DNA from: Basidiobolus meristosporus CBS 931.73
Lineage: Eukaryota > Basidiobolomycota > Basidiobolomycetes > Basidiobolales > Basidiobolaceae
Length of the DNA: 64,000 nt
Direction: 5' to 3'
NCBI GenBank assembly: GCA_002104905.1
Contig: MCFE01000427.1
Location: 1-64,000, forward strand
In this document: positions 1,817 through 57,599 of the stretch, in pieces
Layout: every line of letters begins with the position of its first letter
Numbering within the stretch: the stretch's first letter is position 1
The notes under the pieces: generated by a model
Databases searched by the model: none
The model's input: the letters and a program-made list of their open reading frames with translations, nothing else
What the model was told of the DNA's origin: nothing
Made by a program: the position numbers and the translations under genes

Positions 1817-2884
1817 ACTGTAGTGGGGTGACAGTGACACCCACTGACGGATGTGCTCATTCCCTTATTTTCTACTTCCCTTTATCTCTACTACACTTAT
1901 TTTAGTTTTATCCCATTTGTCTTACCTGATCAGTACTATCCCATAAGCCGGTTGACTATCATACCTGCTTACCTTATTGCATAAGTTACCCCTCACTTTA
2001 TGTAAGATTACTAGCTATAAGTGCTTCTATATTAGGCAAGTACCCACGCCAGTACCCATGACACATGGTCACCCCGTATCACCATCCCTACCATTTCCAT
2101 ACCATGTATGGTATCCCTATGTTACACAGGTTTCAGAATACTGATTCCTGATTGGTTGGATGTGCTGTGCCTCTTAGAACCTTCCGGCACCTACTTAGAA
2201 CATTCTTAGGTCATTCTGATGTCATTAAGATTTCTACTGATATCCGGAACCTTCTAGAACACCATGATTGGTAATCACTTAGGCAGTAAGAAAAGTATAT
2301 AAGGGAGGCTATCCCTCAACAATAAATCATCATCCCTTTTATCAATATACCAACTTGTTGATTAGTGTGATAACTGCTACCGGGTGCTACCTGAACTTCC
2401 AACCCCAGACCACAGGACACTCCCAGGAAATCACGCTGACAGCCAACTCATCTTGGAGGCACTACTTGTGAGGAATACTCAGAGTGGGTATCTTTTATTT
2501 TATTTAATTCTTTCACAAGTTTGATCTTGTACAGGCAAAGATACTTTTCTGTCTTTGTAACTATTGACCACAGCTGCATTCTTATCAAGTCCCTGCTGGT
2601 GGAGTTTACAGTTGTTTTGACTTTGGAAGCTTTAGTACATTGTCATCTCAAAGGACGCTGAACCCAGCACATACTTTTGCTAATATGCCAACTAAGTTGG
2701 GTATTGTGGCTCAATAGTTTTCCCTTGACAAGCTTGTGGCTTTATTCCCCTTCACATTAGATTAGAGACAGAACCCAAGTATTCCTAGCAAGCTTTTGCC
2801 AGAGGTTATTGCACCTAGTGAACACCCCACACACAAAACACTTGAGAAGTGTTGGACGCTCTCTCTTGGACTTATACACCACCA
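1817..2884. mobile_element. ~1.07-kb LTR-like insertion inside copia copy 1
   Basis: This block interrupts the reverse transcriptase reading of copy 1: family A coding sequence stops at about 1816 and resumes at about 2885. It begins TGTAGTGGGGTG and ends in a CACCACCACA-like string, so it has LTR-like TG...CA termini. Inside are a TATA-like box (TATATAAG near 2296) and an AATAAA signal near 2322, as in an LTR. No transposase or polymerase was recognised, so it may be a large solo LTR or an internally deleted element of another family. Exact ends and a target duplication are uncertain. Confidence 0.5.
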
Positions 2885-3849
2885 CATTGCCAATAACCTA
2901 GAAACATTGGAAGAGACTAAATCCGGCCTATCTAAGGAGTTCAAGATGTCCAATCTAGGAGAACTTAGTTACTACTTAGGGATTAAGTTCCCCATAGACA
3001 GAAGTACCCAGACTATTAACCTAAGCCAATCCAAGTATATTCAAAATATACTAAAGGAGTACCAAACAGAAGACTGTAAACTGGCAGCTACCCTAATGGA
3101 GACAAGCCTTGACTTGGTCAAAACTCAACCAAATCAAGAGAGCTTGGTGCCATCTAAAAGCCCTGACTTTCCTTATCAATCTATAGTTGGCAGTCTGATG
3201 TATATTATACTTAGAACATGTGCAGATATCTCATATTCAGTGGGAGTTGTCAGCCAACATAATCAGTACTATGGATCTGATCATATTGCAGCAGTTAAGT
3301 GGATTTTCAGATACCTAAAAGGAACTGCTGATATCTGCTTAAAATACACTTATAAGGATTCAGACCAGGATCTTCTGGGATACTCTGATGCAGATTGGGA
3401 AAGAATTGTGGAAGACAGAAGATCCACCACAGGATACACCTTTCTTTACTGTAAAGGAGCAATTGCATGGAATTCAAGAAAGCAACCAACCGTAGCACTT
3501 TCCACCACAGAGGCAGAGTATATGGCAGCCTGTGAAGCTACAAAAGAAGTAATGTGGTTAAGAAAGCTTTTTAAAGATTTAGGCCTATGTCAAAAACTGT
3601 CTATTACCTTATTTCAAGATAAACAAGGAAGTATACAATTAAGTAAAAATCCAACTTTTCATGCTAAGACCAAGCACATAGATATCAGACATCATTTCAT
3701 ATGTGGAGCTATAGAGAATAGCTTAGTTAGCTTAGTTTACTGTCCTACAGGTGAGATGATTGCAGACATATTTACCAAACCATTTGCTAGAGACAAGTTT
3801 GAATATTTTAGGTCAAAATTTGGACTAGTCAGTATGAACATTTAGCTGA
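2885..3849 (+). pseudogene. Copia family A copy 1, 3' part (RT end and RNase H)
   Basis: Continuation of copy 1 after the insertion. One long open stretch (to 3845) reads the RT connection (SYYLGIKF), the copia RNase H signatures GYSDADW, ALSTTEAEYMAACEATKE and TKHIDIRHHF, and the C-terminal ADIFTKPFARDKFEYFRSK. It is open to its natural stop, so this portion is the best preserved, but it lacks everything upstream in one frame. The LTR follows 7 bases after the stop. Confidence 0.88.
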
Positions 3850-14934: not shown

Positions 14935-15284
14935 TGTTAGATATAAGGAACCTATCAAGAAATAGTGATAAAGATTGAGATGTTGTTTATCAATAAAGAA
15001 GCTCAGTATTTATACCTTTGTGGAAGTAATACAGTTGTAACACTAAGTAAGGAGGGTTTCTTGATATTCAGGAGCATTCGGTAACAATTTCAGGGCTAGT
15101 ACATAGTTTCTACTAATAGTGCCCATTTGATCCTGACTATAGGGAAATAATAATAAGATCATAGATCTGAAGAAAGTGGCCAAGTTAGCGCTGTAAGTTA
15201 GTCCCACAGTGACCAAAACTAGTCCAAAATTGTTAAGTAGGTTTTTAGCTGCTGAATATTACCAAATTGTCCTATATTTCAACA
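14935..15284 (-). repeat. 3' LTR of copia family B
   Basis: On the minus strand it begins TGTTGAAATATAGG at 15284, directly after a GAGGGGGAG polypurine tract, and ends near 14935. It matches the solo LTR at 9507-9875 apart from a small deletion at its far end. Confidence 0.8.
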
Positions 15285-16220
15285 CTCCCCCTCAACTAAA
15301 TAATTTCTTAATCGTAATTCCTCCCTGAGATTCACAAATTGTGGCCTAGCTAGTGGTTTTGTCAATATATCTGCCACCATTCTGTTAGTTGGGAAGTACA
15401 CTAACTCTACTAAGCTGTTTTTTGCAGCTTTCCTCTCTGAGTGATGCTGTATATCAATGTGCTTAGTTCTGGCATGATTAGTATGATTTCTAGCTAATAA
15501 AATACAGCTTTGATCTTCTTTGTAAATACCTTTTGGCTCATCTGAATAAAAACCTAAGTCTTTGAATAGTTTTTGTTGCCATATAGCCTCCTTAGTTGCT
15601 TGACATGCAGCCATATATTCAGCTTCAGTTGTAGATAGGGCCACAGTTGGTTGTTTCTTGCAGTCTTAAGTAATAGCTGCACCAGCATAAAGAAAAACAT
15701 ATCCTGTGGTAGAGTGTCTGTCAATCAGATCCCTACCCCAATCTTAATCACTATAACCATCAAATTCTTGCCTATTAGCTTCTCAGGAGTATTCCAGTAC
15801 CATACTTATGGTACCTTGTAGATATCTGAAAATCTGCTTAACTGCTGCAATTTGATCTGGTCCATATTTCTGCATGAATTGACTGACTATTCCAACTGCC
15901 AATGCAGTATCTGGACAAGCAGACACCATCAGGTCCATTAGGTTGCCAACCATTGATTGATAGGGAAAGTTTAGGTCCATATTTGAGCTGTTCTCATCCA
16001 TAACTGGATGGGATTTGCCTGATTTCAGGTGATTGTCCTTAGTGATAGCTGCAGGCTTGCCATTTTCCATTTTGGAGAGTCTAAGAATGTCCCTCATGTA
16101 CTTGGACTGATTCAGCACAACTTTCTGCGTAGGTCTGTCAAATTTGACTTCAATTCCAAGAAAATAGCTCAATTTTCCAAGATCTTTGATGTCAAACTTG
16201 CTGAAGAGATCTGGTTGTGG
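15285..16220 (-). pseudogene. Copia family B pol fragment (RT end and RNase H)
   Basis: Minus strand. The open piece 16223-15783 reads the RT connection (LGKLSYFLGIEVKFD) and NFPYQSMVGNLM. The piece 15644-15279 reads ALSTTEAEYMAACQATKE, ARTKHIDIQHHSERKAA and a MVADILTKPLARPQF stretch, then stops before the LTR. A frame break separates them (15650-15780). Only the 3' part of pol remains; at 16221 it is joined directly to the first unit of the tandem array. Protein differences from family A are large, so this is a separate family. Confidence 0.85.
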
Positions 16221-16620
16221 CAATTTATATTTGGTATCAGTGAGATAATTTAATCAGGTGTAGTGAATGGCTGAACAAAATCTGGCCAATATCAAATTCA
16301 TTGTAGTGATTGTCATAGCCTAGTGGCAACTACCAAGCAGGGTACATGTCAGGTGCAGGGATCAATTCCTACCTGATGGCAAATGTGGGAAACTCTAAGT
16401 AGGGAGATTTCTCTTTTGTGAAAAATAGAATCCAATATTTGGCTGCATACCCACCAGTGACCCTACTTTTTAGCTGACCCTAAGCAGGGACTCTGCCCAA
16501 TATATTCTTTCCATGCAGCAAAATTGGGAGACTTACATTGTGTTTATTCAAAAGATTCTTAATAGGCCAAAACTCATGTACTGTTCAAAATGGAAGAACT
16601 TCTGCTTTGAAGACCAGAAG

Positions 16621-17001
16621 CTAGCAATAGTCACTATAGCAGTCATCATAATAGTCATCATCATAGCAGTCATCATAACTGTCATCATAGCAGTCATCAT
16701 CATAGTTATCATCACAGCAGTCATCATAGCAGTCATCATCACAGCAGTCATCATAGCAGTCATCATCACAACAGTCATCATAGTCATCATCACAGCAGCA
16801 ATCTTCATCATCCCAGTCATCATAGCAGTCATCATCACAATCATCACAGCAGTCATCATCATATCCATAAGAGTTGTACCACCTCTTCTGGAGAGCACTC
16901 CCTGTGGCAGCTACCTCACCCTGAGGTAAAGCTGAGCCATTCTTCAGAAGAAGCACACTGAGTATGACCACAAGGGAAGCTCTGCTTAGAAGGGATCTCA
17001 T
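16621..17001 (-). CDS. Secreted Asp/Cys/Tyr-rich protein, array copy 1
   Basis: 126 residues, no recognised family. Residues 1-24 are a clear signal peptide (RSLLSRASLVVILSVLLL core, GSA cleavage). Residues 25-40 form a short propeptide ending LQKR, a Kex2 site. The mature part (41-126, 86 residues) starts WYNSYGYDDDCC and is built almost wholly of D, C and Y: I count 43 Asp, 19 Cys and 15 Tyr, in DDDCYDDCC-like units. Expected to be exported and very acidic; Asp plus Cys suggests cation binding or disulfide-crosslinked assembly (inference). A TATA-like ATTTAAAT lies at 17139-17146, about 140 bp upstream. The other frames over this low-complexity DNA are also open, but only this one has signal peptide, Kex2 site and composition consistent with a product. 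Confidence 0.8.
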   Translation of the reverse strand: MRSLLSRASLVVILSVLLLKNGSALPQGEVAATGSALQKRWYNSYGYDDDCCDDCDDDCYDDWDDEDCCCDDDYDDCCDDDCYDDCCDDDCYDDCCDDNYDDDCYDDSYDDCYDDDYYDDCYSDYC

Positions 17002-17703
17002 AGTGATGGGAGGTGCTCAGCAAGTGGCAGGAGAGAAAGGGTTGTGTATCAGGAAGAGCAGAGAGCCTGGCAGCTGTTGCTATGAGAGGGAGAAGAGAAG
17101 CCTGGGAAGATAAGTGGGAGTAGCCTGTGCCAACTCTATTTAAATGCTCTCTTGATAAGGCCAAGGGAAGGTCAGTGAAACAAGGTCAGTGTGATCAGTG
17201 ACTGCAATGCAACTGATGGATATAATCCAAGTGAGCATCTGCATTTAGCACACACCCTGCTGCCATCACTATTACCCAGACAGTGTAGGTCAAGGATTAG
17301 GCAATTTATATTTGGTATCAGTGAGATAATTTAATCAGGTGTAGTGAATGGCTGAACAAAATCTGGCCAATATCAAATTCATTGTAGTGATTGTCATAGC
17401 CTAGTGGCAACTACCAAGCAGGGTACATGTCAGGTGCAGGGATCAATTCCTACCTGATGGCAAATGTGGGAAACTCTAAGTAGGGAGATTTCTCTTTTGT
17501 GAAAAATAGAATCCAATATTTGGCTGCATACCCACCAGTGACCCTACTTTTTAGCTGACCCTAAGCAGGGACTCTGCCCAATATATATTCTTTCCATGCA
17601 GCAAAATTGGGAGACTTACATTGTGTTTATTCAAAAGATTCTTAATAGGCCAAAACTCATGTACTGTTCAAAATGGAAGAACTTCTGCTTTGAAGACCAG
17701 AAG

Positions 17704-18084
17704 CTAGCAATAGTCACTATAGCAGTCATCATAATAGTCATCATCATAGCAGTCATCATAACTGTCATCATAGCAGTCATCATCATAGTTATCATCACAG
17801 CAGTCATCATAGCAGTCATCATCACAGCAGTCATCATAGCAGTCATCATCACAACAGTCATCATAGTCATCATCACAGCAGCAATCTTCATCATCCCAGT
17901 CATCATAGCAGTCATCATCACAATCATCACAGCAGTCATCATCATATCCATAAGAGTTGTACCACCTCTTCTGGAGAGCACTCCCTGTGGCAGCTACCTC
18001 ACCCTGAGGTAAAGCTGAGCCATTCTTCAGAAGAAGCACACTGAGTATGACCACAAGGGAAGCTCTGCTTAGAAGGGATCTCAT
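17704..18084 (-). CDS. Secreted Asp/Cys/Tyr-rich protein, array copy 2
   Basis: Residue-for-residue identical to copy 1 (126 residues: signal peptide 1-24, propeptide ending KR at 39-40, 86-residue D/C/Y mature part). Upstream region including the ATTTAAAT box (18222-18229) and the 3' flank are also the same as in copy 1, so both are expected to be expressed alike. One complete tandem unit separates their starts. Confidence 0.8.
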   Translation of the reverse strand: MRSLLSRASLVVILSVLLLKNGSALPQGEVAATGSALQKRWYNSYGYDDDCCDDCDDDCYDDWDDEDCCCDDDYDDCCDDDCYDDCCDDDCYDDCCDDNYDDDCYDDSYDDCYDDDYYDDCYSDYC

Positions 18085-18815
18085 AGTGATGGGAGGTGCT
18101 CAGCAAGTGGCAGGAGAGAAAGGGTTGTGTATCAGGAAGAGCAGAGAGCCTGGCAGCTGTTGCTATGAGAGGGAGAAGAGAAGCCTGGGAAGATAAGTGG
18201 GAGTAGCCTGTGCCAACTCTATTTAAATGCTCTCTTGATAAGGCCAAGGGAAGGTCAGTGAAACAAGGTCAGTGTGATCAGTGACTGCAATGCAACTGAT
18301 GGATATAATCCAAGTGAGCATCTGCATTTAGCACACACCCTGCTGCCATCACTATTACCCAGACAGTGTAGGTCAAGGATTAGGCAATTTATATTTGGTA
18401 TCAGTGAGATAATTTAATCAGGTGTAGTGAATGGCTGAACAAAATCTGGCCAATATCAAATTCATTGTAGTGATTGTCATAGCCTAGTGGCAACTACCAA
18501 GCAGGGTACATGTCAGGTGCAGGGATCAATTCCTACCTGATGGCAAATGTGGGAAACTCTAAGTAGGGAGATTTCTCTTTTGTGAAAAATAGAATCCAAT
18601 ATTTGGCTGCATACCCACCAGACCCTACTAGCTGACCCTAGACTAGACCCTACTTTTTAGCTGACCCTAAGCAGGGACTTACTGACCCTACACTATATAT
18701 TCTTTCCATGCAGCAAAATTGGGAGACTTACATTGTGTTTATTCAAAAGATTCTTAATAGGCCAAAACTCATGTACTGTTCAAAATGGAAGAACTTCTGC
18801 TTTGAAGACCAGAAG

Positions 18816-19196
18816 CTAGCAATAGTCACTATAGCAGTCATCATAATAGTCATCATCATAGCAGTCATCATAACTGTCATCATAGCAGTCATCATCATAG
18901 TTATCATCACAGCAGTCATCATAGCAGTCATCATCACAGCAGTCATCATAGCAGTCATCATCACAACAGTCATCATAGTCATCATCACAGCAGCAATCTT
19001 CATCATCCCAGTCATCATAGCAGTCATCATCACAATCATCACAGCAGTCATCATCATATCCATAAGAGTTGTACCACCTCTTCTGGAGAGCACTCCCTGT
19101 GGCAGCTACCTCACCCTGAGGTAAAGCTGAGCCATTCTTCAGAAGAAGCACACTGAGTATGACTACAAGAGAAGCTCTGCTTAGAAGGGATCTCAT
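18816..19196 (-). CDS. Secreted Asp/Cys/Tyr-rich protein, array copy 3, different promoter
   Basis: Same 126-residue protein as copies 1 and 2. The frame is open further upstream (to 19265, MLINLLYLSQ...), but I chose the start at 19196 because it gives the signal peptide used in the other copies. Sequence immediately upstream of the start is unrelated to that of copies 1-2, so copy 3 lost the shared promoter or keeps the ancestral one. Regulation could therefore differ. Confidence 0.75.
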   Translation of the reverse strand: MRSLLSRASLVVILSVLLLKNGSALPQGEVAATGSALQKRWYNSYGYDDDCCDDCDDDCYDDWDDEDCCCDDDYDDCCDDDCYDDCCDDDCYDDCCDDNYDDDCYDDSYDDCYDDDYYDDCYSDYC

Positions 19197-19230
19197 AGTG
19201 GGAGCAGCTTGTCTCACCTCCTCTTGAATG

Positions 19231-27798: not shown

Positions 27799-28486
27799 GT
27801 GCTCGGATGAAAACCTCGTGTCACCAAGAATACCGCCAGAATAAACAAACCTTGCTTCGTTTGAAACAACCAGGGACTTAAGTGATTTATAGGAATAGCA
27901 TGCAACTTGCCATGTTGTCACCATGGGCATGCGGGTGGCGAGGGGGGGGGGTATCCTAGCATTCTTCCAAGGCCCCCGTCCCTTGATGCGTATGATCTAA
28001 CTTGGCTGTAAATGAATCCGATGAGGGTTAGAGTGAGTGATTTGTGCCCAACACCAAATTAATGAGCAACTGGAGTGGTACCTGATCCATCCAGATCGCG
28101 CTACATGGATACTGGTGCTGGATGATGTTGACCAGGATCCAGTCATTGCCTGGCAATTGTGGGTGGGATATATCCGCGATCCAAAGATGCAGTGCACCCG
28201 AAGGTGCCATGCGTACATGTGTCTTCATGCAAGCAGCCATCAGGAGTTTCGGGTTTAGGAGATGCTGTTCTGCAGGTATTCCAATTGCCAGGGATAACTT
28301 CCGTAAGGCGTATCCATGTAATGGAGGGCCAATAATCCGAGCTTCACGGTGAGCGGCTACAGCACTATTTAAGTGCACCAGAGGCCACACTGGATGTCCA
28401 AGCAAGTATCATCCTCATCTCTAGTAGCCAGCACCAAGCACCGCTTTCACCAAGCATATAGATCTTCTTTCCCTCCACCATCAATC
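27799..28486. promoter_or_regulatory. Intergenic region with the repeat-precursor promoter
   Basis: The 3' region of the Kre9-like gene (AATAAA at 27840) is followed by the upstream region of the repeat precursor. A TATTTAAG box at 28366-28373 lies about 115 bp before the ATG at 28487. Open frames here on both strands have no support. Confidence 0.5.
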
Positions 28487-29038
28487 ATGCGTTTCTTCTC
28501 AGTCAGCCTTGCCTTGGTCGCTTTGACCTCCCTCCTCCTGACCAGCGCCAATGCTGCGTCATTTGAGAAACGCCACGGAAACGAGAAACACGTGGCCTCT
28601 GCGCTTGAGAAACGTCACGGTAACGAGAAACATGTGGATGCTGTACTTGAGAAGCGTCATGGTAACGAGAAACACATCGCGGCGGTTCTTGAGAAACGCC
28701 ATGGCAACGAGAAACATGTGGATGCTGTACTTGAGAAGCGTCACGGCAACGAGAAACACATCGCCGAGCTTGAGAAGCGCCACGGAAATGAGAAACACGT
28801 AGTAGAGCTCGAGAAGCGCCACGGCAACGAGAAGCATATCGCCGAGCTCGAGAAGCGTCATGGTAACGAGAAACACGTCGCGGCGGTCCTCGAGAAGCGT
28901 CATGGCAACGAGAAGCACGTGGTAGGCCTCGAGAAACGTCACGGTAACGAGAAGCACATTGCTGAACTCGAGAAACGCCATGGCAAGGAGAAGCACGTGG
29001 CCAGCGTGGAGAAGCGACACGGTAATGAGAAACATTAG
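28487..29038 (+). CDS. Kex2-processed repeat peptide precursor (12 HGNEKH repeats)
   Basis: 183 residues. The start MRFFSVSLALVAL gives a signal peptide (to about residue 23, TSANA). The rest is 12 repeats of KRHGNEKH (one reads HGKEKH) joined by 4-6 residue spacers such as VDAVLE, IAELE and VVGLE. Each repeat begins at a KR Kex2 site, so processing should release about a dozen near-identical 11-14 residue peptides beginning HGNEKH. This is the layout of fungal KEP proteins: alpha-type pheromone precursors, Ustilago Rep1 repellent peptides and dikaritin RiPP precursors. Codons differ at third positions between repeats while the peptide stays constant, which argues for selection. No UstY-like (DUF3328) enzyme is nearby, so a RiPP is not supported. 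AATAAATT near 29183 is a likely poly(A) signal. Confidence 0.88.
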   Translation: MRFFSVSLALVALTSLLLTSANAASFEKRHGNEKHVASALEKRHGNEKHVDAVLEKRHGNEKHIAAVLEKRHGNEKHVDAVLEKRHGNEKHIAELEKRHGNEKHVVELEKRHGNEKHIAELEKRHGNEKHVAAVLEKRHGNEKHVVGLEKRHGNEKHIAELEKRHGKEKHVASVEKRHGNEKH

Positions 29039-36026: not shown

Positions 36027-36518
36027 ATGCAATTTAGCAGCAAGGGTGAGAATCTACTGAAGTCCATCGAGGGCCTATCGTTGCAACCGTACGATGATCA
36101 AAAGGGCCTGAGTTCGGCGCCAATCAAGAGCTGGGTTGCAGGAGCAACCATTGGGTACGGACACCTGATCCCCAGCGCTCAGTGGAGCAAGTACAAGAGC
36201 GGCATCACCAAGGCCGAGGCTGAAGCCCTTTTCCAAGCCGACCTCAAGCCATTCGTGCAGGCTGTCAACGATTCGGCCAAAGTGAAGCTCCAGCAGCAGT
36301 TTGATGCCTGCGTGCTTTTATGCTTCAACATTGGCGTTAGTGCATTCAAGACCTCCTCTGTAGTCAAGATCCTGAACGGGCAAACCACCAGCTACCCCTC
36401 CCTGGAAGCGGCCTGGAAAGCCTGGAACAAGAGCCAAGGACAGGTGAATGCTGGACTGGTCAACAGACGAAATGCCGAATGGAAAATCTATACACAAGGA
36501 ATCTACGAGAAGTGGTAG
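36027..36518 (+). CDS. Phage-type (GH24) lysozyme
   Basis: 163 residues, intronless. It hydrolyses the MurNAc-GlcNAc bond of bacterial peptidoglycan. Diagnostic features: catalytic Glu 15 in LLKSIEGLSLQPYDD, Asp 23/24, Thr 41 in ATIGYGHLI (the E-D-T triad of T4-type lysozymes), DACVLLCFNIG, and the C-terminal VNRRNAEWKIYTQG. Normal length for a bare GH24 domain. No signal peptide is visible from this start, so export would need another route or an unrecognised upstream exon. The family is mainly bacterial and phage, suggesting ancient acquisition (inference). It is now in a fungal setting, with a TATA box and an AATAAA at 36551. Flanked by copies of the 93-residue Cys-rich gene; a fossil second lysozyme lies at about 38021. 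Confidence 0.88.
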   Translation: MQFSSKGENLLKSIEGLSLQPYDDQKGLSSAPIKSWVAGATIGYGHLIPSAQWSKYKSGITKAEAEALFQADLKPFVQAVNDSAKVKLQQQFDACVLLCFNIGVSAFKTSSVVKILNGQTTSYPSLEAAWKAWNKSQGQVNAGLVNRRNAEWKIYTQGIYEKW

Positions 36519-39826: not shown

Positions 39827-40066
39827 CTAATCGCTGCATTGAATGAGGGAGCATGACTTGCAGTTGGTGTAGTTGGGCCAGCCTTGGGCTTGGCATTTCA
39901 CATTCTGGTCAGTGCACTGCACGGTGGTTCCGGAGACATAGCAAGATCTGGTACCGAGGGAGAGGGCGCTGGCACACTTCTGGGCGGAGGAGCCGCATTG
40001 AAGAGAGAACTGGGTGGCGCTGACGGCCAAGCCGAAGAAAGCGATGACAAGAGCAGCAGTACGCAT
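39827..40066 (-). CDS. 8-Cys small secreted protein, tandem copy 1
   Basis: 79 residues, no recognised family. Signal peptide 1-17 (RTAALVIAFFGLAVSA), then a mature part of about 62 residues with eight evenly spaced cysteines (LQCGSSAQKC, SCYVSGTTVQC, VKCQAQGWPNYTNC, KSCSLIQC). There is no CC pair, so it is not a hydrophobin. One N-glycosylation sequon (NYTN). Residue 34 is Ala. TATAAAAG on the minus strand at 40126-40133, about 60 bp upstream. First of four copies spaced about 1.1-1.2 kb. Its 3' flank differs from the other three, so it may be the oldest or the array border. Confidence 0.82.
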   Translation of the reverse strand: MRTAALVIAFFGLAVSATQFSLQCGSSAQKCASALSLGTRSCYVSGTTVQCTDQNVKCQAQGWPNYTNCKSCSLIQCSD

Positions 40067-40930: not shown

Positions 40931-41170
40931 CTAATCGCTGCATTGAATGAGGGAGCATGACTTGCAGTTGGTGTAGTTGGGCCAGCCTTGGGCTTGGCAT
41001 TTCACATTCTGGTCGGTGCATTGCACGGTGGTTCCGGAGACATAGCAAGATCTGGTACCGAGGGAGAGGGAGCTGGCACACTTCTGGGCGGAGGAGCCGC
41101 ATTGGAGAGAGAACTGGGTGGCGCTGACGGCCAAGCCGAAGAAAGCGATGACAAGAGCAGCAGTACGCAT
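40931..41170 (-). CDS. 8-Cys small secreted protein, tandem copy 2
   Basis: Same 79-residue protein as copy 1 except Ser at residue 34. TATAAAAA box near 41232. The 3' flank (GAATCGCATTCAGTCGCCAG) is shared with copies 3 and 4, and upstream non-coding DNA shares segments with the other copies, so the whole ~1.1-kb unit was duplicated. Confidence 0.82.
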   Translation of the reverse strand: MRTAALVIAFFGLAVSATQFSLQCGSSAQKCASSLSLGTRSCYVSGTTVQCTDQNVKCQAQGWPNYTNCKSCSLIQCSD

Positions 41171-42125: not shown

Positions 42126-42365
42126 CTAATCGCTGCATTGAATGAGGGAGCATGACTTGCAGTTGGTGTAGTTGGGCCAGCCTTGGGCTTGGCATTTCAC
42201 ATTCTGGTCAGTGCACTGCACGGTGGTTCCGGAGACATAGCAAGATCTGGTACCGAGGGAGAGGGCGCTGGCACACTTCTGGGCGGAGGAGCCGCATTGG
42301 AGAGAGAACTGGGTGGCGCTGACGGCCAAGCCGAAGAAAGCGATGACAAGAGCAGCAGTACGCAT
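42126..42365 (-). CDS. 8-Cys small secreted protein, tandem copy 3
   Basis: Protein identical to copy 1 (Ala 34). The proximal upstream sequence is nearly identical to that of copy 2, including the TATAAAAA box near 42427. Flanks therefore pair it with copy 2 while residue 34 pairs it with copy 1, suggesting gene conversion among copies. Confidence 0.82.
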   Translation of the reverse strand: MRTAALVIAFFGLAVSATQFSLQCGSSAQKCASALSLGTRSCYVSGTTVQCTDQNVKCQAQGWPNYTNCKSCSLIQCSD

Positions 42366-43311: not shown

Positions 43312-43551
43312 CTAATCGCTGCATTGGATGAGGGAGCATGACTTGCAGTTGGTGTAGTTGGGCCAGCCTTGGGCTTGGCATTTCACATTCTGGTCGGTGC
43401 ACTGCACGGTGGTTCCGGAGACATAGCAAGATCTGGTACCGAGGGAGAGGGAGCTGGCACACTTCTGGGCGGAGGAGCCGCATTGGAGAGAGAACTGGGT
43501 GGCGCTGACGGCCAAGCCGAAGAAAGCGATGACAAGAGCAGCAGTACGCAT
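43312..43551 (-). CDS. 8-Cys small secreted protein, tandem copy 4
   Basis: Protein identical to copy 2 (Ser 34). The frame is open upstream (to 43695), but the start at 43551 gives the signal peptide conserved in the other copies. TATATA-type box near 43614. Last unit of the array. Confidence 0.82.
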   Translation of the reverse strand: MRTAALVIAFFGLAVSATQFSLQCGSSAQKCASSLSLGTRSCYVSGTTVQCTDQNVKCQAQGWPNYTNCKSCSLIQCSD

Positions 43552-43695
43552 TGGTGTAGATGAAGTTAGAACTTTGCAAGTGTTTGCAAAATCTACAGGT
43601 ACCATCCTCCACTTATATATCAGTTGACTACAATAGCGATCCAGGGAATATAAAGTGAGCATGACCGAGAGTATCTTCTTTCTCGACCATGTCAT

Positions 43696-46534: not shown

Positions 46535-47599
46535 ATGGCTTACTCAGATTTTGATCTAACTGTGATTCTGGTGACCATTTGCATTTTGATCGCCTCCTAC
46601 CTGGCTGTAGTGAGATCTCATCGATTCAGGAGAAGGAGCTACATCCAGCAGCTGTATGGACGGATTCAAACAAAAGATGAACACTACAAAGCCGTTGCCT
46701 ACCACAAAATCTTCCGGGAAACCACCGCAGACTTTCCACTAACCATGGACTTTGCACTTGGTTTAGCCAATGTCTATTTATGTGGCATTCCTAGTGTTAG
46801 CAAAAAACTTGCCGCCACTAAGCAGCTCACTGAAGCAACCGAGAAACGGTTCGAAGACACAGATATAATGTTGCGGGAGGTAATGGAGAACCCGCCTGGC
46901 AGTAGCCGCTCTGACATGGCACTTCGCCGGATCAATTATATGCATAGGCGTTACCAGATCAATTCGGAACATGCCTGGTATGTCTTTGGGCTCTATGTGT
47001 TCGTTACCATCGACATGATCTCCAAATACGAGTGGCGCTCGCTACTGGAGGCGGAGAAACAGGCCATCTACCAATACTGGATGGGCTATTTGGCCAAAAA
47101 GATGGGATTTTCTCCTAGCACAGTGATAGACAGCTATCAGAAGTTCGAGGGGTGGTTCCGTAAATACCATTCCAGGCACCAGGTTCACCATCCTCTGAAT
47201 TCACGACTAGGTAACGTCACATTGGAGTATTTCCGGTCCATACTTCCGACATACCTTCAGTGGCTCTCTGACCCTGTGGTTTTGAGCCTATGCGGGCCCC
47301 TGGAGCTTCATGCTATCTTCCACTGCCCGGATATGCCCGACTGTGCAAACGAACGGCTAAAGCGTAGGGTTTGGCCTTCTCTGCTGATATCTGGTGGTTT
47401 TTTTTTGCGACGATGCATTGTCAGGTACCTCTGCTTCCCTAAGGAAATACCCCGGCGCACCCCTGAATCCAAGCGCCCAGATGGGAGTTACGTGCCCAAC
47501 TGGGAAATCTCCCCGGGTTGTATCTATGCGAATGGGTACAAGATTGAATCAATTGGCCCTCCAAAGTTTGCTCACAGGTTTGGCGAGCTCTACCATTAA
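46535..47599 (+). CDS. MpaB-type ER-bound oxygenase (DUF2236 family)
   Basis: 354 residues, intronless. Residues 9-27 form an N-terminal membrane anchor (LTVILVTICILIASYLAVV), followed by basic residues, so the catalytic part should face the cytosol from the ER. The body matches the mpaB / rubber-oxygenase catalytic family (PF09995), including the RRINYMHRRYQINSEHAWYV region (residues 131-150; His 137 in the conserved segment) followed by an aromatic, hydrophobic helix. MpaB' cleaves the farnesyl chain in mycophenolic acid biosynthesis; fungal relatives act on diverse, mostly unknown lipophilic substrates. Length is slightly below the usual ~400. TATAAA at 46485-46490, 45 bp before the ATG. 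Associated with a methyltransferase fragment upstream; the pair is duplicated at the right edge. Confidence 0.85.
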   Translation: MAYSDFDLTVILVTICILIASYLAVVRSHRFRRRSYIQQLYGRIQTKDEHYKAVAYHKIFRETTADFPLTMDFALGLANVYLCGIPSVSKKLAATKQLTEATEKRFEDTDIMLREVMENPPGSSRSDMALRRINYMHRRYQINSEHAWYVFGLYVFVTIDMISKYEWRSLLEAEKQAIYQYWMGYLAKKMGFSPSTVIDSYQKFEGWFRKYHSRHQVHHPLNSRLGNVTLEYFRSILPTYLQWLSDPVVLSLCGPLELHAIFHCPDMPDCANERLKRRVWPSLLISGGFFLRRCIVRYLCFPKEIPRRTPESKRPDGSYVPNWEISPGCIYANGYKIESIGPPKFAHRFGELYH

Positions 47600-49733: not shown

Positions 49734-50065
49734 TGTTGTAAAAATTCGTATTTCCACCTAAATATTCACCTAACTTAGTCACTTAGATCATCACCTTCAA
49801 ATCCTAGAGAATACTGACCAAATTCCTTGTTGGGATTTACTTAGAATATTTACCCAGAACATGAAAATTTGATAAGTTGTCCAAACAGCCCCAAACTTTG
49901 CACACATGTTCTTGGGACCTTCCTTAACCTATTCTACGGGTTTGTAATGCCAAGACCATGTAAAAGTATAAATACTACTTTTACATTCAATAAATCATTA
50001 AGTGAAAACCACATAATCTACTTGTTCTCCCAATCACTTCCAATATCTCCAAGACTCTTACAACA
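49734..50065 (+). repeat. 5' LTR of the family A element (short type)
   Basis: 332 bp, TGTTGTAAAAATTCG ... CTCTTACAACA. TATAAATAC near 49969 and AATAAATC near 49989 give promoter and poly(A) signals. Lacks a ~19-bp segment present in the 3' LTR; same type as the solo LTRs at 22674 and 54689. Confidence 0.93.
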
Positions 50066-50077
50066 GGTTATGAGCCC
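50066..50077 (+). promoter_or_regulatory. Primer-binding site for an initiator-Met half-tRNA
   Basis: GGTTATGAGCCC directly abuts the LTR. It is the complement of the anticodon stem-loop of eukaryotic initiator tRNA-Met (GGGCTCATAACC), not of a tRNA 3' end. That is the priming mode known for Drosophila copia and yeast Ty5, where a tRNA cut in the anticodon loop primes reverse transcription. The complement of the CAT anticodon supplies an ATG at 50070 in frame with gag. Confidence 0.8.
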
Positions 50078-53000
50078 CAAGCTGTCACTCTCTGCAATGT
50101 CTACTACTGCTATTACTGGAATTTTTCCCTCTGCTGAAAAGTTGGATGGATCTAACTACCAAGTGTGGAAGGTGAAGATGAAGATGCTGCTACAAGAAAG
50201 AGGCCTTTGGGATATTGTCATGGGAGAAGAATGCCCTCCTAAAAACATGGGAGAGGAAGCCTTAAAGTACCAGAAGAAAGAACAAAGTGCCTTTAACTGC
50301 ATTTGCCTTAATGTCAAGGACAAATTGCTAATTCAATGCTCAAGAGCAAAAACGGCAAAGAATGCCTGGAAGGCATTAGAAGACACCTACCAGTCATGTT
50401 CAGCTGCCAAGAAAATGTATCTGAGAAGAAAATTCTTTACTACAAAGATGCTGCCAGGAGAAGAAATGAAAAATCTAATTAACAGAATTACCCTGCTGGT
50501 AGATGAGATGGAATCTGTGGGCGTACCAACTACTGATGAGGATGTGATAGTTACCATCCTGAATAGCCTGACAGACGAGTTTCAGGGCCTTGTATCAGCC
50601 CTAGAGTCCAGAACTGAAGATTTGACCTTAAATTACGTATATGGAAGGCTCCTGGATGAAGAATTAAGAAAATCAAGCGCCAATAAGAAGGAAGAAGAAA
50701 ATGCTTTAATAAGCAATGATAACCAACAAAGGAGGTACCCAAGACCCTACAAAGGCAACAACAACCTATTTTGCAACTACTGCAAAAGGAAAGGACACAC
50801 ATCAGACCGGTGTTTCAAAAAGAGAGATTATCAGCAAAAGAAGCCTGAATATGGAAATGCTGCAACAACTGAAGATAGACTATTCATATCTGCACTAAAT
50901 ATGACCACAAACAAGGATTCTCAGACGTGGTATATTGACTCTGGAGCTTCCCAACACTTTACACACCAAAAAGAACTTTTTACCCAATATCAAGAAATTC
51001 CAATTAAGAAGGTTTTCATGGGTGACAATAGAACACTTGATGCAGTGGGAGAAGGAACTATCCAAGTAAACCTTAGAAGCAGTGAAGGAAGCCATACACT
51101 GACCTTTAAAGAAGTACTCTATGTACCAGAAATAGCCAAGAACCTACTCTCTGTAAGCAAGGCCACAGCAGAAGGACTCAGTTTCAGTTTTAACAATTCT
51201 GGATGCAGGATCACTGATCAAAATGGTGCCCATATTGCTTCGGGCATCAGAGATCAGAATCTATACAAGTTGACTTATATTCCATCATATCTGGAAGCCA
51301 ATATAAGTAACTTAAATGAAGAAACACCAATGCTTTGGCACAGGAGATTTGGACACATCAATTTTGATTATTTGCGTAAAATGATCAAAGATCAGCTAAT
51401 TTCTGGAGTGAAAATTGATCCCCCAGCTATTTTGGAGCACTGTGAAGCCTGCATATATGGGAAACAAGCCAGACAACCGTTCAAGAGCTCTGGGTTAATC
51501 AAAACTAAGAAAAAATTAGATCTAATTCACTCAGATCTGTGTGGACCTATGCAAAATTTATCCTTAGGTGGGATGAAGTATTTAATCACTTTTATTGATG
51601 ATTATACAAGATACACATGGGTCTACTTCATGGAGAGAAAGGAAGAAGCTCTGTCTAAGCTCAGGGAGTTTAAAGCCATGGTGGAGAGAGAAACTGGTGA
51701 AAAAATCAAGAAAATACGCTCTGACAATGGTGGAGAATATACCTCAAAACTCTTCATCCACTTCTGCAAAATTCATGGGATAAAGCAAGAGACTACTGTA
51801 CCATACTCCCCACAGCAAAATGGAGTAGCAGAACAAGCTAACAGATCAATAATTGATATGGCAAGATCTATGATCCATGATCAAAAATTATCCTATGATA
51901 TTTGGGCGGAATCAGTTGCCACTGCTGTATATCTTAAAAATAGGAGTTATAACAGAATACTTCGTGATTCTACTCCATTTGAAGCATGGTATGGATACAG
52001 ACCAAGTGCAGAACATCTAAGAATATTTGGGTGTACAGCATATGCCAAAAAACTGGCCGGAAATCAGTCAAAATTTGAGCCAAAAAGTGTAAAATGCATA
52101 TTTTTGGGCTACTGCAATGAGAGTAAGGCATACAGACTCTACAATACCAAAGCAAAGAAGCTGATCAAGTCCAGGGATGTGTTGTTTGATGAAAATTCAA
52201 AATTTTCACAAAAAATGACATCAGATGATGACGAAAATTTGATCTCAAGTCCACCAATTGTCAGGATTGAATCAGAGCAAAACAATGAAAATTTTTTCAC
52301 TCCAGAGGACTCTACAACCATGGTTCAGCCAGAATCAGTGCCCAGGAATATCCCAGAAGTGATCATTCCAGTATCAAATGCCCGGAGATCCAATCGGACA
52401 AGAAATAGCCCAAATTACTATATCAATGAGGGTACAAACTTAGCCTATGCCTATTCAGTCCATGTTGATGAACCCCAGACTGTAAAAGAGGCCCTAAATA
52501 GCCCTCAGACGAAGTTTTGGAGATCTGCAATGACTGAGGAATATCAGGCACTGATGGAAAATCAAACTTGGGACTTAGTCAAATTACCAATCAACCGAAA
52601 ATCAATTGGATGCAGATGGGTCTTCAAGACAAAATACAAGGCTGATGGTACAATTGAAAGATACAAAGCAAGACTTGTAGCCAAAGGATACTCTCAAACA
52701 AAAGGACTTGACTATACTGAGACCTTTGCACCGGTAGCCAAGTTTAATTCCATCAGATTAATATTGGCTATTGCAGCCAAATATAAGTTTTTTATTCATC
52801 AAATGGATGTAAAAACTGCATTTTTGAATGGAGAACTTGATGAGGACGTGTATATGGACCAGCCTGATGGGTTTGTTGACCAAGATAACCCCCATTTGGT
52901 CTGCAAGCTTAAAAAGTCACTATATGGTCTCAAACAATCACCGAGAGCCTGGAATTGCAAGATAGATTCTTATTTGGAATCTTTGAGTTTCAAAAGGAGT

Positions 53001-53651
53001 AATGCTGACTATAGTATATACTATAAGCCAGATAGAGCAAATCCAGTTCTATTAGCTCTATATGTGGATGATCTTATTATAGCCGCCAATAACCTAGAAA
53101 CATTGGAAGAGACTAAATCCAGCCTATCTAAGGAGTTCAAGATGTCCGATCTAGGAGAACTTAGTTACTACTTAGGGATTAAGTTCTCCATAGACAGAAG
53201 TACCCAGACTAGTACCCTAAGTCAATCCAAGTATATTCAAGATATACTAAAGAAGTACAAAATGGAAGACTGTAAACCGGCAGCTACCCCAATGGAGACA
53301 AACCTTAACTTGGTCAAAACTCAACCAAATCAAGAGAGCTTGGTGCCATCTGAAAGCCCTGACTTTCCTTATCAATCTATGGTCGGCAGTCTGATGTATA
53401 TCATGCTTGGAACATGTCCAGATATCTCATATTCAGTGGGAGTAGTCAGCCAACATAATCAGAATTATGGATCTGATCATATTGCAGCAGTTAAGCGGAT
53501 TTTTAGATACCTAAAAGGAACTGCTGATATCTGCTTAAGATACACTTATAAGGATTCAGAACAGGATCTTGTGGGATACTCTGATGCTGATTGGGGACGA
53601 AATTTGGAAGACAGAAGATCTACCACAGGATACACCTTTCTTTCACTGTAA
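50070..53651 (+). pseudogene. Copia gag-pol polyprotein, broken in RNase H
   Basis: Single frame from the ATG at 50070 (a second candidate is 50097) to a premature stop at 53651; the frame is also open into the LTR but that part is not natural. Order: gag (YQVWKVKMKMLLQERGLW), CCHC zinc knuckle CNYCKRKGHTSDRC (about 50773), protease YIDSGASQH (about 50930), pre-integrase WHRRFGHIN, integrase HSDLCGP and YSPQQNGVAEQANRS, RT RWVFKTKYKADG, MDVKTAFLNGELDEDV and the catalytic LYVDDLI (about 53060), RNase H GYSDADWG. This integrase-before-RT order is diagnostic for copia. Relative to the sister copies there is one extra C at about 53644, shifting the last 130 residues out of frame. Confidence 0.92.
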
Positions 53652-54042
53652 AGGAGCCATTTCATGGAATTCAAGAAAGCAACCAACCGTAGCACTTTCC
53701 ACCACAGAGGCAGAGTATATGGCAGCCTGTGAAGCTACAAAAGAAGCAATGTGGTTAAGAAAGCTCTTTACAGATTTAGGCCTATGTCAAAAAACGCCTA
53801 TTACTTTATTTCAAGATAATCAAGGATGTATACAATTAGGTAGAAATCCAACTTTTCATGCTAGAACCAAGCACATAGATATTAGACATCATTTCATACG
53901 TGAAGCTATAGAGAATAACTTAGTTAGCTTAGTTTACTGTCCTACAGATGAAATGATTGCAGACATATTTACCAAACCATTAGCTAGAGACAAGTTTGAA
54001 TATTTTAGGTCAAAATTAGGACTAGTCAGTATGAACATTTAG
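53640..54042 (+). pseudogene. Out-of-frame C-terminal RNase H part of the polyprotein
   Basis: Continues the polyprotein in the next frame after the insertion: CKGAISWNSRKQPTVALS, TTEAEYMAACEATKE, FQDNQG, RTKHIDIRHHF, then ADIFTKPLARDKFEYF to the natural stop at 54040-54042. All RNase H signatures are intact, so the defect is this one base, or a sequencing error at that position. Confidence 0.88.
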
Positions 54043-56388: not shown

Positions 56389-57489
56389 CTACGCTTCAGG
56401 TTGATCACGAGTTGCGCAATGAATGCCTCCACCACCTGCTGCAATGTAGTCGATGTTCAAGGGAACAATTTGTCGACCAGGGAATACACCTCGAAGAACA
56501 TTCTGCGCCGCCCTATCCGCCTCTGCATCCCCAAACTCCGGCATGATAATGGCTCCATTAGCAATGTAGAAGTTAGCATAGGAGCCTAGGAACGAGTCCC
56601 CGAACACCTCCAGGGACACTTCATCTGTGGCTCCTTCGGCGGGCATCCCCCTGATTTTCTCGTAATCTGGCTCAGGCAGTTGTATGATCTTTAGTCGGTT
56701 CCCCTTTGCATCGGTAGCTTGAGTCAAGACTTGCATGGCTTGACGATATTGCTCGGCCCAGATGGCAGAGTCAGGGTCATTCTTTCTGGCTGGCCCTGGA
56801 CGACTCACTACCACAACACCCGGTGCAACAAACCGAGCCAAGGTGTCCACATGCGAGTCGGTAATATCCTTCCCTTTGACTCCCTTGAGCCAGATGACCT
56901 TCTGGATGCCAAGCTCAGACTTGAGCTCCGTTTCGATCTCCTTACGACCCATCCCAGGATTGCGGTTGCTGTTCACGATGCTGCTCTCTGTCACTAGTAG
57001 CGTCCCCTGGCCATCGGTCTCAATGGCCCCTCCTTCGGCAACAAGAATAGATCGGAGTCGAGGGATTTTGTAGTGAGCGAGATAGTTACGTGATGCACTC
57101 CCATCATTCTTGCGGTACCTGGATGGGATTTTCATTCCCCAGCCATTGAAGTTGTAATCAACGCCAATCGTCTCCTTTCCCTTGGTAAGAAACAGAGGCG
57201 CAGTGTCCCGAGTCCAAAAATCATCCACAGCAATGGGGATCACCTCTACCTTGTCTCCCAAAGCCTTTTTAGCGTGGTGGATCTGATCAGGTGAGACTAG
57301 AACTTGGACTGGCTCGAAACGGGAGATGGCTTGCGCTAGCTGAGCAATGTTTCTTTGAGCGCCAGTAAGTAGATTTCGCCAGATGTATGTCGACGCAGGC
57401 CAAGCCATGATGGTACGCTTGTGCGGCTCCCATTCGGGGGCAATGCGGTAGCCAGTAGGCGCTTTGGTTAGGGGCTTGTTCTTGCACAT
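56389..57489 (-). CDS. Agmatine deiminase (PPAD family)
   Basis: 366 residues from the ATG at 57489 (MCKNKPLTKAPTGYRIAPEW). The frame stays open to 57582, but this start is just downstream of a TATATATA box (57525-57535) and gives the usual N-terminus. The enzyme converts agmatine to N-carbamoylputrescine and ammonia on the route to putrescine. Family motifs in order: EWEPHKRTIMAWP, FWTRDTAPLF, EGGAIETDGQGTLL, NRNPGM, DSHVDTLARFVAPG and the C-terminal GGGGIHCATRDQP with nucleophile Cys 358. Length matches known agmatine deiminases. No signal peptide. Patchy in fungi and common in bacteria and plants, so transfer is possible but unproven. It stands alone, with no polyamine genes nearby. Confidence 0.88.
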   Translation of the reverse strand: MCKNKPLTKAPTGYRIAPEWEPHKRTIMAWPASTYIWRNLLTGAQRNIAQLAQAISRFEPVQVLVSPDQIHHAKKALGDKVEVIPIAVDDFWTRDTAPLFLTKGKETIGVDYNFNGWGMKIPSRYRKNDGSASRNYLAHYKIPRLRSILVAEGGAIETDGQGTLLVTESSIVNSNRNPGMGRKEIETELKSELGIQKVIWLKGVKGKDITDSHVDTLARFVAPGVVVVSRPGPARKNDPDSAIWAEQYRQAMQVLTQATDAKGNRLKIIQLPEPDYEKIRGMPAEGATDEVSLEVFGDSFLGSYANFYIANGAIIMPEFGDAEADRAAQNVLRGVFPGRQIVPLNIDYIAAGGGGIHCATRDQPEA

Positions 57490-57599
57490 ACTTTTGGATA
57501 TGAGGAAGTGGGAGATGGAAAGTAGTATATATACATACCAGGATCGGAGGGATTTCCATATTTGGGGTTTATCCACCGCCAAGCCTCTAATAGATCAAC

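Follow-up and report, generated by a model that had tools for sequence, protein, structure and literature searches.

In Kex2-processed repeat proteins (KEPs), Kex2 sites lie between the repeated units. As set out in a survey of this group, KEPs are further recognized by an ER signal peptide and a highly repeated sequence (PMC7329392). Small Cys-rich proteins with CCXP(X) repeats are known from wool, where keratin-associated proteins (KAPs) form a disulfide cross-linked matrix (PMC4929423). Fluke eggshells are hardened via DOPA, with disulfides suggested for one group; in one account, the cross-link partners named for DOPA are Lys and His, and Cys was undetected in the eggshell of the fluke studied (PMC11727788).

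Here we describe a family of predicted secreted proteins from Basidiobolus meristosporus CBS 931.73, whose genome was obtained by PacBio sequencing; the same study also draws on RNA-seq data of this species (PMC7466969). The window, a stretch of 64,000 nucleotides, sits on contig C677 (77,097 bp) of an assembly of 89.0 Mb and 1311 contigs. The family resembles KEPs in its signal-like N-terminus, Kex2-type site and repeats (tetrads in a sister branch; periods of 12, 27 and 39 nt in the window copies), but contains no Kex2-type sites between the repeats. The CCDPCCDP stretches of the sister branch recall the small, Cys-rich CCXPX-repeat proteins KAP2 and other Cys-rich KAPs (PMC4929423), whereas KAPs are animal proteins bound to keratin filaments and the family looks secreted, is rich in Asp, carries a KR site and repeats with a period of four residues. 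No KAP family match was found in Pfam for the window protein (E ≤ 10) or for the C1112 and sister proteins (E ≤ 1). Trematode eggshell (vitelline) proteins, described as Tyr/DOPA-hardened structural proteins with disulfides suggested in one group (PMC11727788), are comparable to the role proposed below for the family, yet its mature part lacks the DOPA-link partners Lys and His, and the trematode eggshell synthesis domain was not found in the family proteins with Pfam. Metallothioneins share with the family a high Cys content and CC and CxxC spacings, but the family differs in its signal-like N-terminus, 50% Asp and abundant Tyr; no metallothionein family match was obtained with Pfam or with the bacterial and archaeal models of NCBIfam.

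Three tandem gene copies encode one Asp/Cys/Tyr protein

Three minus-strand ORFs of 126 codons each encode one identical 126-aa protein (Table 1); the ORF list entry for copy 3 begins at an upstream ATG and comprises 149 aa, while its inner ATG gives the 126-aa product. The protein consists of a hydrophobic N-terminus of ~24 residues, a 16-residue propeptide ending in KR and an 86-residue mature part, with the signal end and the Kex2 site placed by eye. The mature part contains 43 Asp, 19 Cys, 15 Tyr, 3 Ser, 2 Trp, 2 Asn, 1 Glu, 1 Gly and no basic residues, with a computed pI of 4.05 and a computed charge of about -44 at pH 7. An earlier note on this DNA had described the same layout of signal peptide, short KR-ending propeptide and an 86-residue remainder, for which it counted 43 Asp, 19 Cys and 15 Tyr; our translation returned the same counts, and the N-terminus is signal-like by eye. 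The window has 133 stop-to-stop frames that are 80 codons or longer. Measured over 80 residues, D+C+Y amounts to 94% in these three and to no more than 26% in any other; the Asp/Cys/Tyr frames are not due to chance. Structure prediction from the single sequence of a family protein gave a pLDDT of 49.8 and no confident fold, with a helix at residues 8-21 in the low-confidence model, although disorder can hardly be concluded from such a prediction when the protein is repetitive.

The window copies are spaced 1083 and 1112 bp from start to start. Units 2 and 3 differ by five mismatches and three gap openings, and their alignment ends near position 19200, just upstream of the third ATG. As units 1 and 2 align without mismatch and copy 3 carries two silent changes (codons 9 and 11), the term 'identical', which the note had applied to all three copies, holds exactly for the protein of all three and, at the level of coding DNA, for copies 1 and 2; copy 3 departs in its two silent codons and in its 5' flank.

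Table 1. Features of the window array and distribution of the family over contigs of the assembly
Feature	Contig	Position	Strand	Details
Gene copy 1	C677	16621..17001	-	Signal-like N-terminus 16930-17001; propeptide LPQGEVAATGSALQKR 16882-16929; mature part (86 aa) 16624-16881; stop 16621-16623
Gene copy 2	C677	17704..18084	-	CDS identical to copy 1; N-terminus 18013-18084; propeptide 17965-18012; mature part 17707-17964
Gene copy 3	C677	18816..19196	-	Same protein, DNA with two silent differences, other 5' flank; N-terminus 19125-19196; propeptide 19077-19124; mature part 18819-19076
Two complete tandem units	C677	16219..18382	-	16219-17299 and 17300-18382; zero mismatch over ~1.08 kb, single 2-bp gap
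Third unit, partial	C677	18383..19200	-	95.8% identity to unit 2 over 818 columns
TATA-like TTTAAATA	C677	17137..17144	-	143 nt upstream of copy 1 ATG; copy 2 equivalent 18220-18227
AATAAA	C677	16543..16548	-	73 nt past stop of copy 1; copy 2 17626-17631; copy 3 18738-18743
AGCTGACCCTAAGCAGGGACT spacer element, CCCTAA-containing 21-mer	C677	16472..16492	+	Others at 17553-17573 and 18659-18679
Spacer element with tRNA A-box/B-box-like words	C677	16306..16413	+	Opposite to gene; equivalents 17387-17494 and 18470-18577
Diverged stray copy of A/B-box-like spacer element	C677	23069..23242	+	73% identity over 178 columns
Family copies	C677			3 copies (window)
Family copies	C1112			4 copies + 1 with start lost at copia element
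Family copies	C1272			1 copy
Family copies	C629			5 copies, one frameshifted
Family copies	C429			2 copies
Family copies	C669			2 copies
Family copies	C1093			3 copies + 1 with internal TGA
Family copies	C740			1 copy + 1 frame-broken, cut by contig end
Family copies	C793			1 copy, cut by contig end

A wider family with two branches

Searches of the genome itself gave 12 matches with the window protein and 28 with the sister protein, several of them fragments. Merged by place and then read in the fetched loci, these represent 25 copies on nine contigs, 20 of them open and five damaged or cut, which lie in tandem units or at contig ends. The three-copy set recognized previously is a real tandem array, but the 25-copy family and its tetrapeptide sister branch had been overlooked. 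Since the arrays on four contigs (C1112, C1272, C740 and C793) extend to the contig ends, the true copy numbers are probably higher. One open copy (C629:74437) has a stretch in another frame before returning to the original one, with 33 Cys and 16 Pro. The final two matches of the sister protein (E 0.04 and 0.11), on C567, were rejected, as a composition filter recovered no member there. Two degenerate motif scans allowing at most one mismatch had no match for either control; one yielded 42 matches, all 42 in arrays, and the other 192, with every one of the 100 listed lying in arrays. A poorly discriminating pattern scan, in which the pattern matched 36 times and its reversed control 17 times, pointed to loci L014-L021 and to C361, C991, C552, C1132 and C1166, in which the composition filter found no family member.

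The window branch comprises C677, C1112 and C1272, with mature parts of 86 or 70 residues and 89-90% D+C+Y. The sister types examined (C629, C1093 and C740) have mature parts that span 103-115 residues, of which 36-43 are Cys and 17-20 are Pro, composed of near-perfect [C/Y/W]-D-[D/P]-C tetrapeptides (in register for 24 of 25, 24 of 25 and 27 of 28 tetrads) in which Cys residues are spaced by 1, 3 or 4, including CC and CxxC. Window-branch proteins are off this register (2 of 21 and 5 of 17 tetrads), mainly, by eye, through added Asp. Judged from these repeats, the sister tetrapeptide branch shows the repeat logic of the family. Across the five types, D+C+Y accounts for 78-90% of the mature part, and K, R and H are absent from it in all five. 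KR is present in 22 of the 23 rows compared, and the remaining row stops just before R. Both branches, which are 43% identical over 44 N-terminal residues, share LP at the start of the propeptide, QKR or LKR, and the mature start (W/G)Y(N/S)(S/Y).

Coding potential and selection

The earlier note had proposed, as a test, a search for homologous loci of relatives in which the named frame is broken while another is conserved. Applied to paralogues of the same genome, this test found the named frame (+0) to be the only one of six that is stop-free over the whole coding stretch, in all five types. If the mature part is taken by itself, three or four frames out of six lack stops, so that the repeat itself is no evidence of coding. 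This openness, together with the seeming lack of annotation of the family, would suit a GAT/TGC minisatellite within a tandem DNA repeat that is open by accident, a reading which we regard as very improbable. Each antisense or other frame open over the mature part has stops in the non-repetitive signal and propeptide region in all five types; over this region alone, one or two extra frames are open in C1112, C1093 and C740, and these have 11-32 stops in the mature part. The synonymous bias of the substitutions also argues against a minisatellite, as does the retention of LP, KR and the mature start in both branches despite their 43% N-terminal identity.

Within branches, dN/dS of the mature part (NG86) was 0.044/0.363 for C677 and C1112, 0.049/0.399 for C629 and C1093, 0.027/0.381 for C629 and C740, and 0.004/0.312 for C1093 and C740, corresponding to ratios of 0.01-0.12. 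Cross-branch pairs (0.232/0.787 for C1112 and C629; dS not computable for C677 and C629) say little because they are near saturation. Changes in the mature part fell at third codon positions in 9 of 15, 16 of 27, 15 of 21 and 12 of 13 cases (tested against one third, P 0.03 to 2e-5), although the pairs drawn from the three sister types are not independent of each other. Within branches, change in the mature part is purifying and not diversifying, and the family very probably codes for secreted proteins.

Flanking and spacer elements

A TATA-like site was absent within 250 nt upstream of copy 3. In all four C1112 copies a TATA-like TATATATT lies 148 nt upstream, and 13 of 15 sister-branch rows have a TATA-like site at -101, the exceptions being C793 and C669:101567; the C1272 copy has 41 nt of upstream sequence only. 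Of 23 rows, 17 have AATAAA within 200 nt past the stop, the position being +73 for the window branch and +107 for the sister branch. The other six comprise three that run into a contig or locus end, two with an early stop inside the gene, and C669:100371, which lacks it.

The four 1059-bp units of C1112 show no differences in any of the three neighbour comparisons. Units of C677 and C1112 align over the 5'UTR and CDS (83% over 453 columns), a 3'UTR stretch (72% over 110 columns), a 24-bp element and the A/B-box-like element (72%, 87 columns), and elsewhere by internal repeats only. The 21-mer spacer element AGCTGACCCTAAGCAGGGACT has 15 matches genome-wide at up to two mismatches, all 15 on the three window-branch contigs, with none for the reversed-pattern control. 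For the A/B-box-like element, a DNA search of the genome placed three of four matches in arrays, the fourth being the one at 23 kb of the window, and a second search placed 12 of 12 in arrays; these counts are lower bounds, as the search skips common words. No family gene match lies beside the stray element. The A/B-box-like element is also present in loci L009, L010, L011, L013, L022 and L024. A tRNA gene or SINE was considered for this element and rejected, since its matches lie almost exclusively in these arrays and Rfam returned no tRNA at E ≤ 10 in L009, L011, L024 and L035; on L011 it gave weak matches to the tRNA-like mascRNA (E 4.7), far under the gathering score. Fold z-scores of -1.08, -0.63, 0.56 and -0.49 gave no fold signal for the element. 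We therefore read the A/B-box-like sequence as a conserved spacer element of these arrays.

Searches for known relatives

A collection of 5.8 billion proteins yielded 546 candidates for the window protein, none at E ≤ 1e-3, while Pfam gave no match at E ≤ 10 and the PDB noise only (E 0.32 and worse). The C1112 protein has no Pfam match at E ≤ 1, and the sister protein has only MSSP (0.21, under its cut-off) at this threshold. Among 694 candidates in the protein collection, the sister protein matched seven proteins at E ≤ 0.01, bacterial-looking and with CCDP/CYDPC stretches, which cover at most 40% of the query where coverage was given; the nematode Ditylenchus destructor is one named source, and none is named Basidiobolus. 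Three of these CCDP/CYDPC-repeat proteins (P0001, P0004 and P0005) resemble the sister protein in an N-terminal CCDPCC/CYDPC stretch, with 46-55% identity over 29-40% of the query, but differ in an additional C-terminal BclA_C-like domain (below cut-off, E 0.06 and 0.006 in the two tested), and no match to the signal or propeptide of the family was noted. For this likeness, convergence appears likelier than descent. In the PDB, the sister protein matches seven chain sequences, every one of them circumsporozoite and the best at E 1.3e-9, inside residues 52-125, where its repeats lie; as circumsporozoite tetrapeptide repeats are not known to contain Cys, we tentatively take this match as a shared period. 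The window protein has no circumsporozoite match in the PDB.

As a control, the window protein at 46535-47599 found two proteins in the collection: one matches it without differences across 67% of its length, and the other, 49% identical, comes from Basidiobolus ranarum. Since the collection includes a B. ranarum protein and apparently one of this contig, its predicted proteins probably do not include the family, although this absence rests on one control query, and word seeding or composition effects could mask the family. The composition is extreme, and the absence may reflect gene callers and composition filters that skip such genes. Literature searches on cysteine-rich proteins of Basidiobolus and on Cys-rich CCDP or CDPC repeats gave no paper, and judged by titles and abstract openings, no such family is the subject of the papers found on Asp/Cys/Tyr-rich fungal secreted proteins and on spore-wall cross-linking. 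The note's statement that it knew of no fungal family with this composition agrees with the lack of a family match in Pfam and in the bacterial and archaeal models of NCBIfam and of a full-length homologue in these, the protein collection or the PDB, matches being limited to repeats. Among what could be searched, the family has so far been seen in one genome and is apparently missing from public protein sets.

Putative function

We propose, with a probability of roughly 40%, that the family forms a cross-linked structural or adhesive extracellular material, amplified for dose. The precursor would enter the secretory pathway via its hydrophobic N-terminus, Kex2 would cleave after the KR of the propeptide, and the mature chain would be exported as a flexible polyanion whose acidity and repetitiveness probably prevent folding. 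Outside the cell, Cys could form intermolecular disulfides, Tyr (and Trp) could be oxidized, the tyrosinases of the fungus perhaps making catechols, and could then be linked among themselves or to Cys, and Asp could bind water, calcium or metal ions. The product would be an insoluble or sticky matrix, for example in the spore wall or as the adhesive of the capilliconidium tip, and tandem arrays that stay nearly uniform would boost its production.

The genome has 55 matches to the tyrosinase family PF00264 (32 places on 30 contigs by hand grouping) in a search with 14 prokaryotes as controls, and these matches make Tyr oxidation possible. Tyrosinases serve many roles. Some of the PF00264 matches contain stops, which could be introns or decay. 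One genus of Basidiobolaceae is described as bearing adhesive material on its capilliconidia (PMC13370150). Together with the tyrosinases, this observation, the disulfide-linked CCXP repeats of wool and the DOPA-hardened eggshells lead us to prefer a cross-linked material over the alternatives, with the counter-point to DOPA links that the mature part has no Lys and His.

Acidic, Cys-rich chains would fit metal binding too. As an extracellular binder, the protein would take up Cu, Zn, Fe or Ca through Cys thiolates and Asp carboxylates, acting as a metallothionein-like buffer or a mineral-directing protein; the 19 Cys and 43 Asp in 86 residues and the CC and CxxC spacings of the sister branch agree with this, but the Pfam searches above returned nothing beyond the sub-threshold MSSP match, 15 Tyr are unusual for metallothioneins, and free thiols outside the cell would tend to oxidize, and we judge such a function to be rather unlikely. 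A peptide acting on the animal host gut, microbes or other fungi seems improbable: the protein is secreted-looking, has a KR site, is amplified and is confined to one genome in what could be searched, and Basidiobolus has been described as amphibian gut-dwelling (PMC10386755), yet its mature part shows purifying rather than diversifying change within branches, and a family match of any kind is absent. Cleavage into many small peptides, as for a ribosomal peptide natural product or a KEP, is more improbable still. The signal-like N-terminus, Kex2-type site, repeats and tyrosinases of the genome would suit it, and a KEP survey ranks B. meristosporus CBS 931.73 as its top strain with 43 KEPs (PMC7329392), but the family has a single dibasic site, and with K, R and H absent from the mature part in all five types, Kex2 would be unable to separate the repeats.

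Returning to the cross-linked material, a more specific and doubtful version would be a fungal 'acid keratin-associated protein', in which a [C/Y/W]-D-[D/P]-C code and its Asp-stretched derivative are joined by disulfides and tyrosinase-made cysteinyl-DOPA, tuned by Asp-bound calcium and deployed in the Basidiobolus spore adhesive or wall, with arrays for dose. Should the family form a cross-linked material, an early-diverging fungus would have a genetically encoded, polyanionic polymer of very simple make-up as its adhesive or wall, and the naturally occurring repeat variants would form a series for study; should it bind metals, it would be an unusual secreted chelator.

Other arrays and neighbouring genes

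The amplified array singled out earlier is real but less special than it seemed, as other small secreted-looking genes of the window and genome are also tandemly repeated. Such arrays are common in the genome, and an array alone is therefore little reason to assume a special role. On the minus strand of the window, a secreted-looking protein of 79 residues that contains Cys (MRTAALVIAFFGLAVSA...) is present in four tandem copies (39827-40066, 40931-41170, 42126-42365 and 43312-43695); NCBIfam gave no match at E ≤ 1 for the one copy tested. At 28373-29038 (+), a signal-like N-terminus is followed by 12 EKRHGNEKHV-type repeats, which has the look of a Kex2-processed repeat protein precursor. A separate Asp/Tyr-rich, signal-peptide-like tandem family with 52 matches consists of DYDDDYDG units split by KK, RR or RRKK sites and occurs on C552, C13, C231, C824, C743, C752 and C1072 and in locus L028, where three true tRNA genes lie between the units on the opposite strand.

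By eye, pieces of Copia-type retrotransposons are present at 2796-3845, 15279-16223 and 49869-54042 of the window, one of which adjoins the window array, and in L009 the C1112 array begins with a gene copy into which a copia-type piece (2104-2715) is fused. The window also encodes an intronless phage-type lysozyme at 36027-36518 (+; PF00959, E 1.7e-30), perhaps of phage or bacterial origin, and a bacterial-type protein of the peptidyl-arginine deiminase family at 56389-57582 (-; PF04371, E 1.1e-106).
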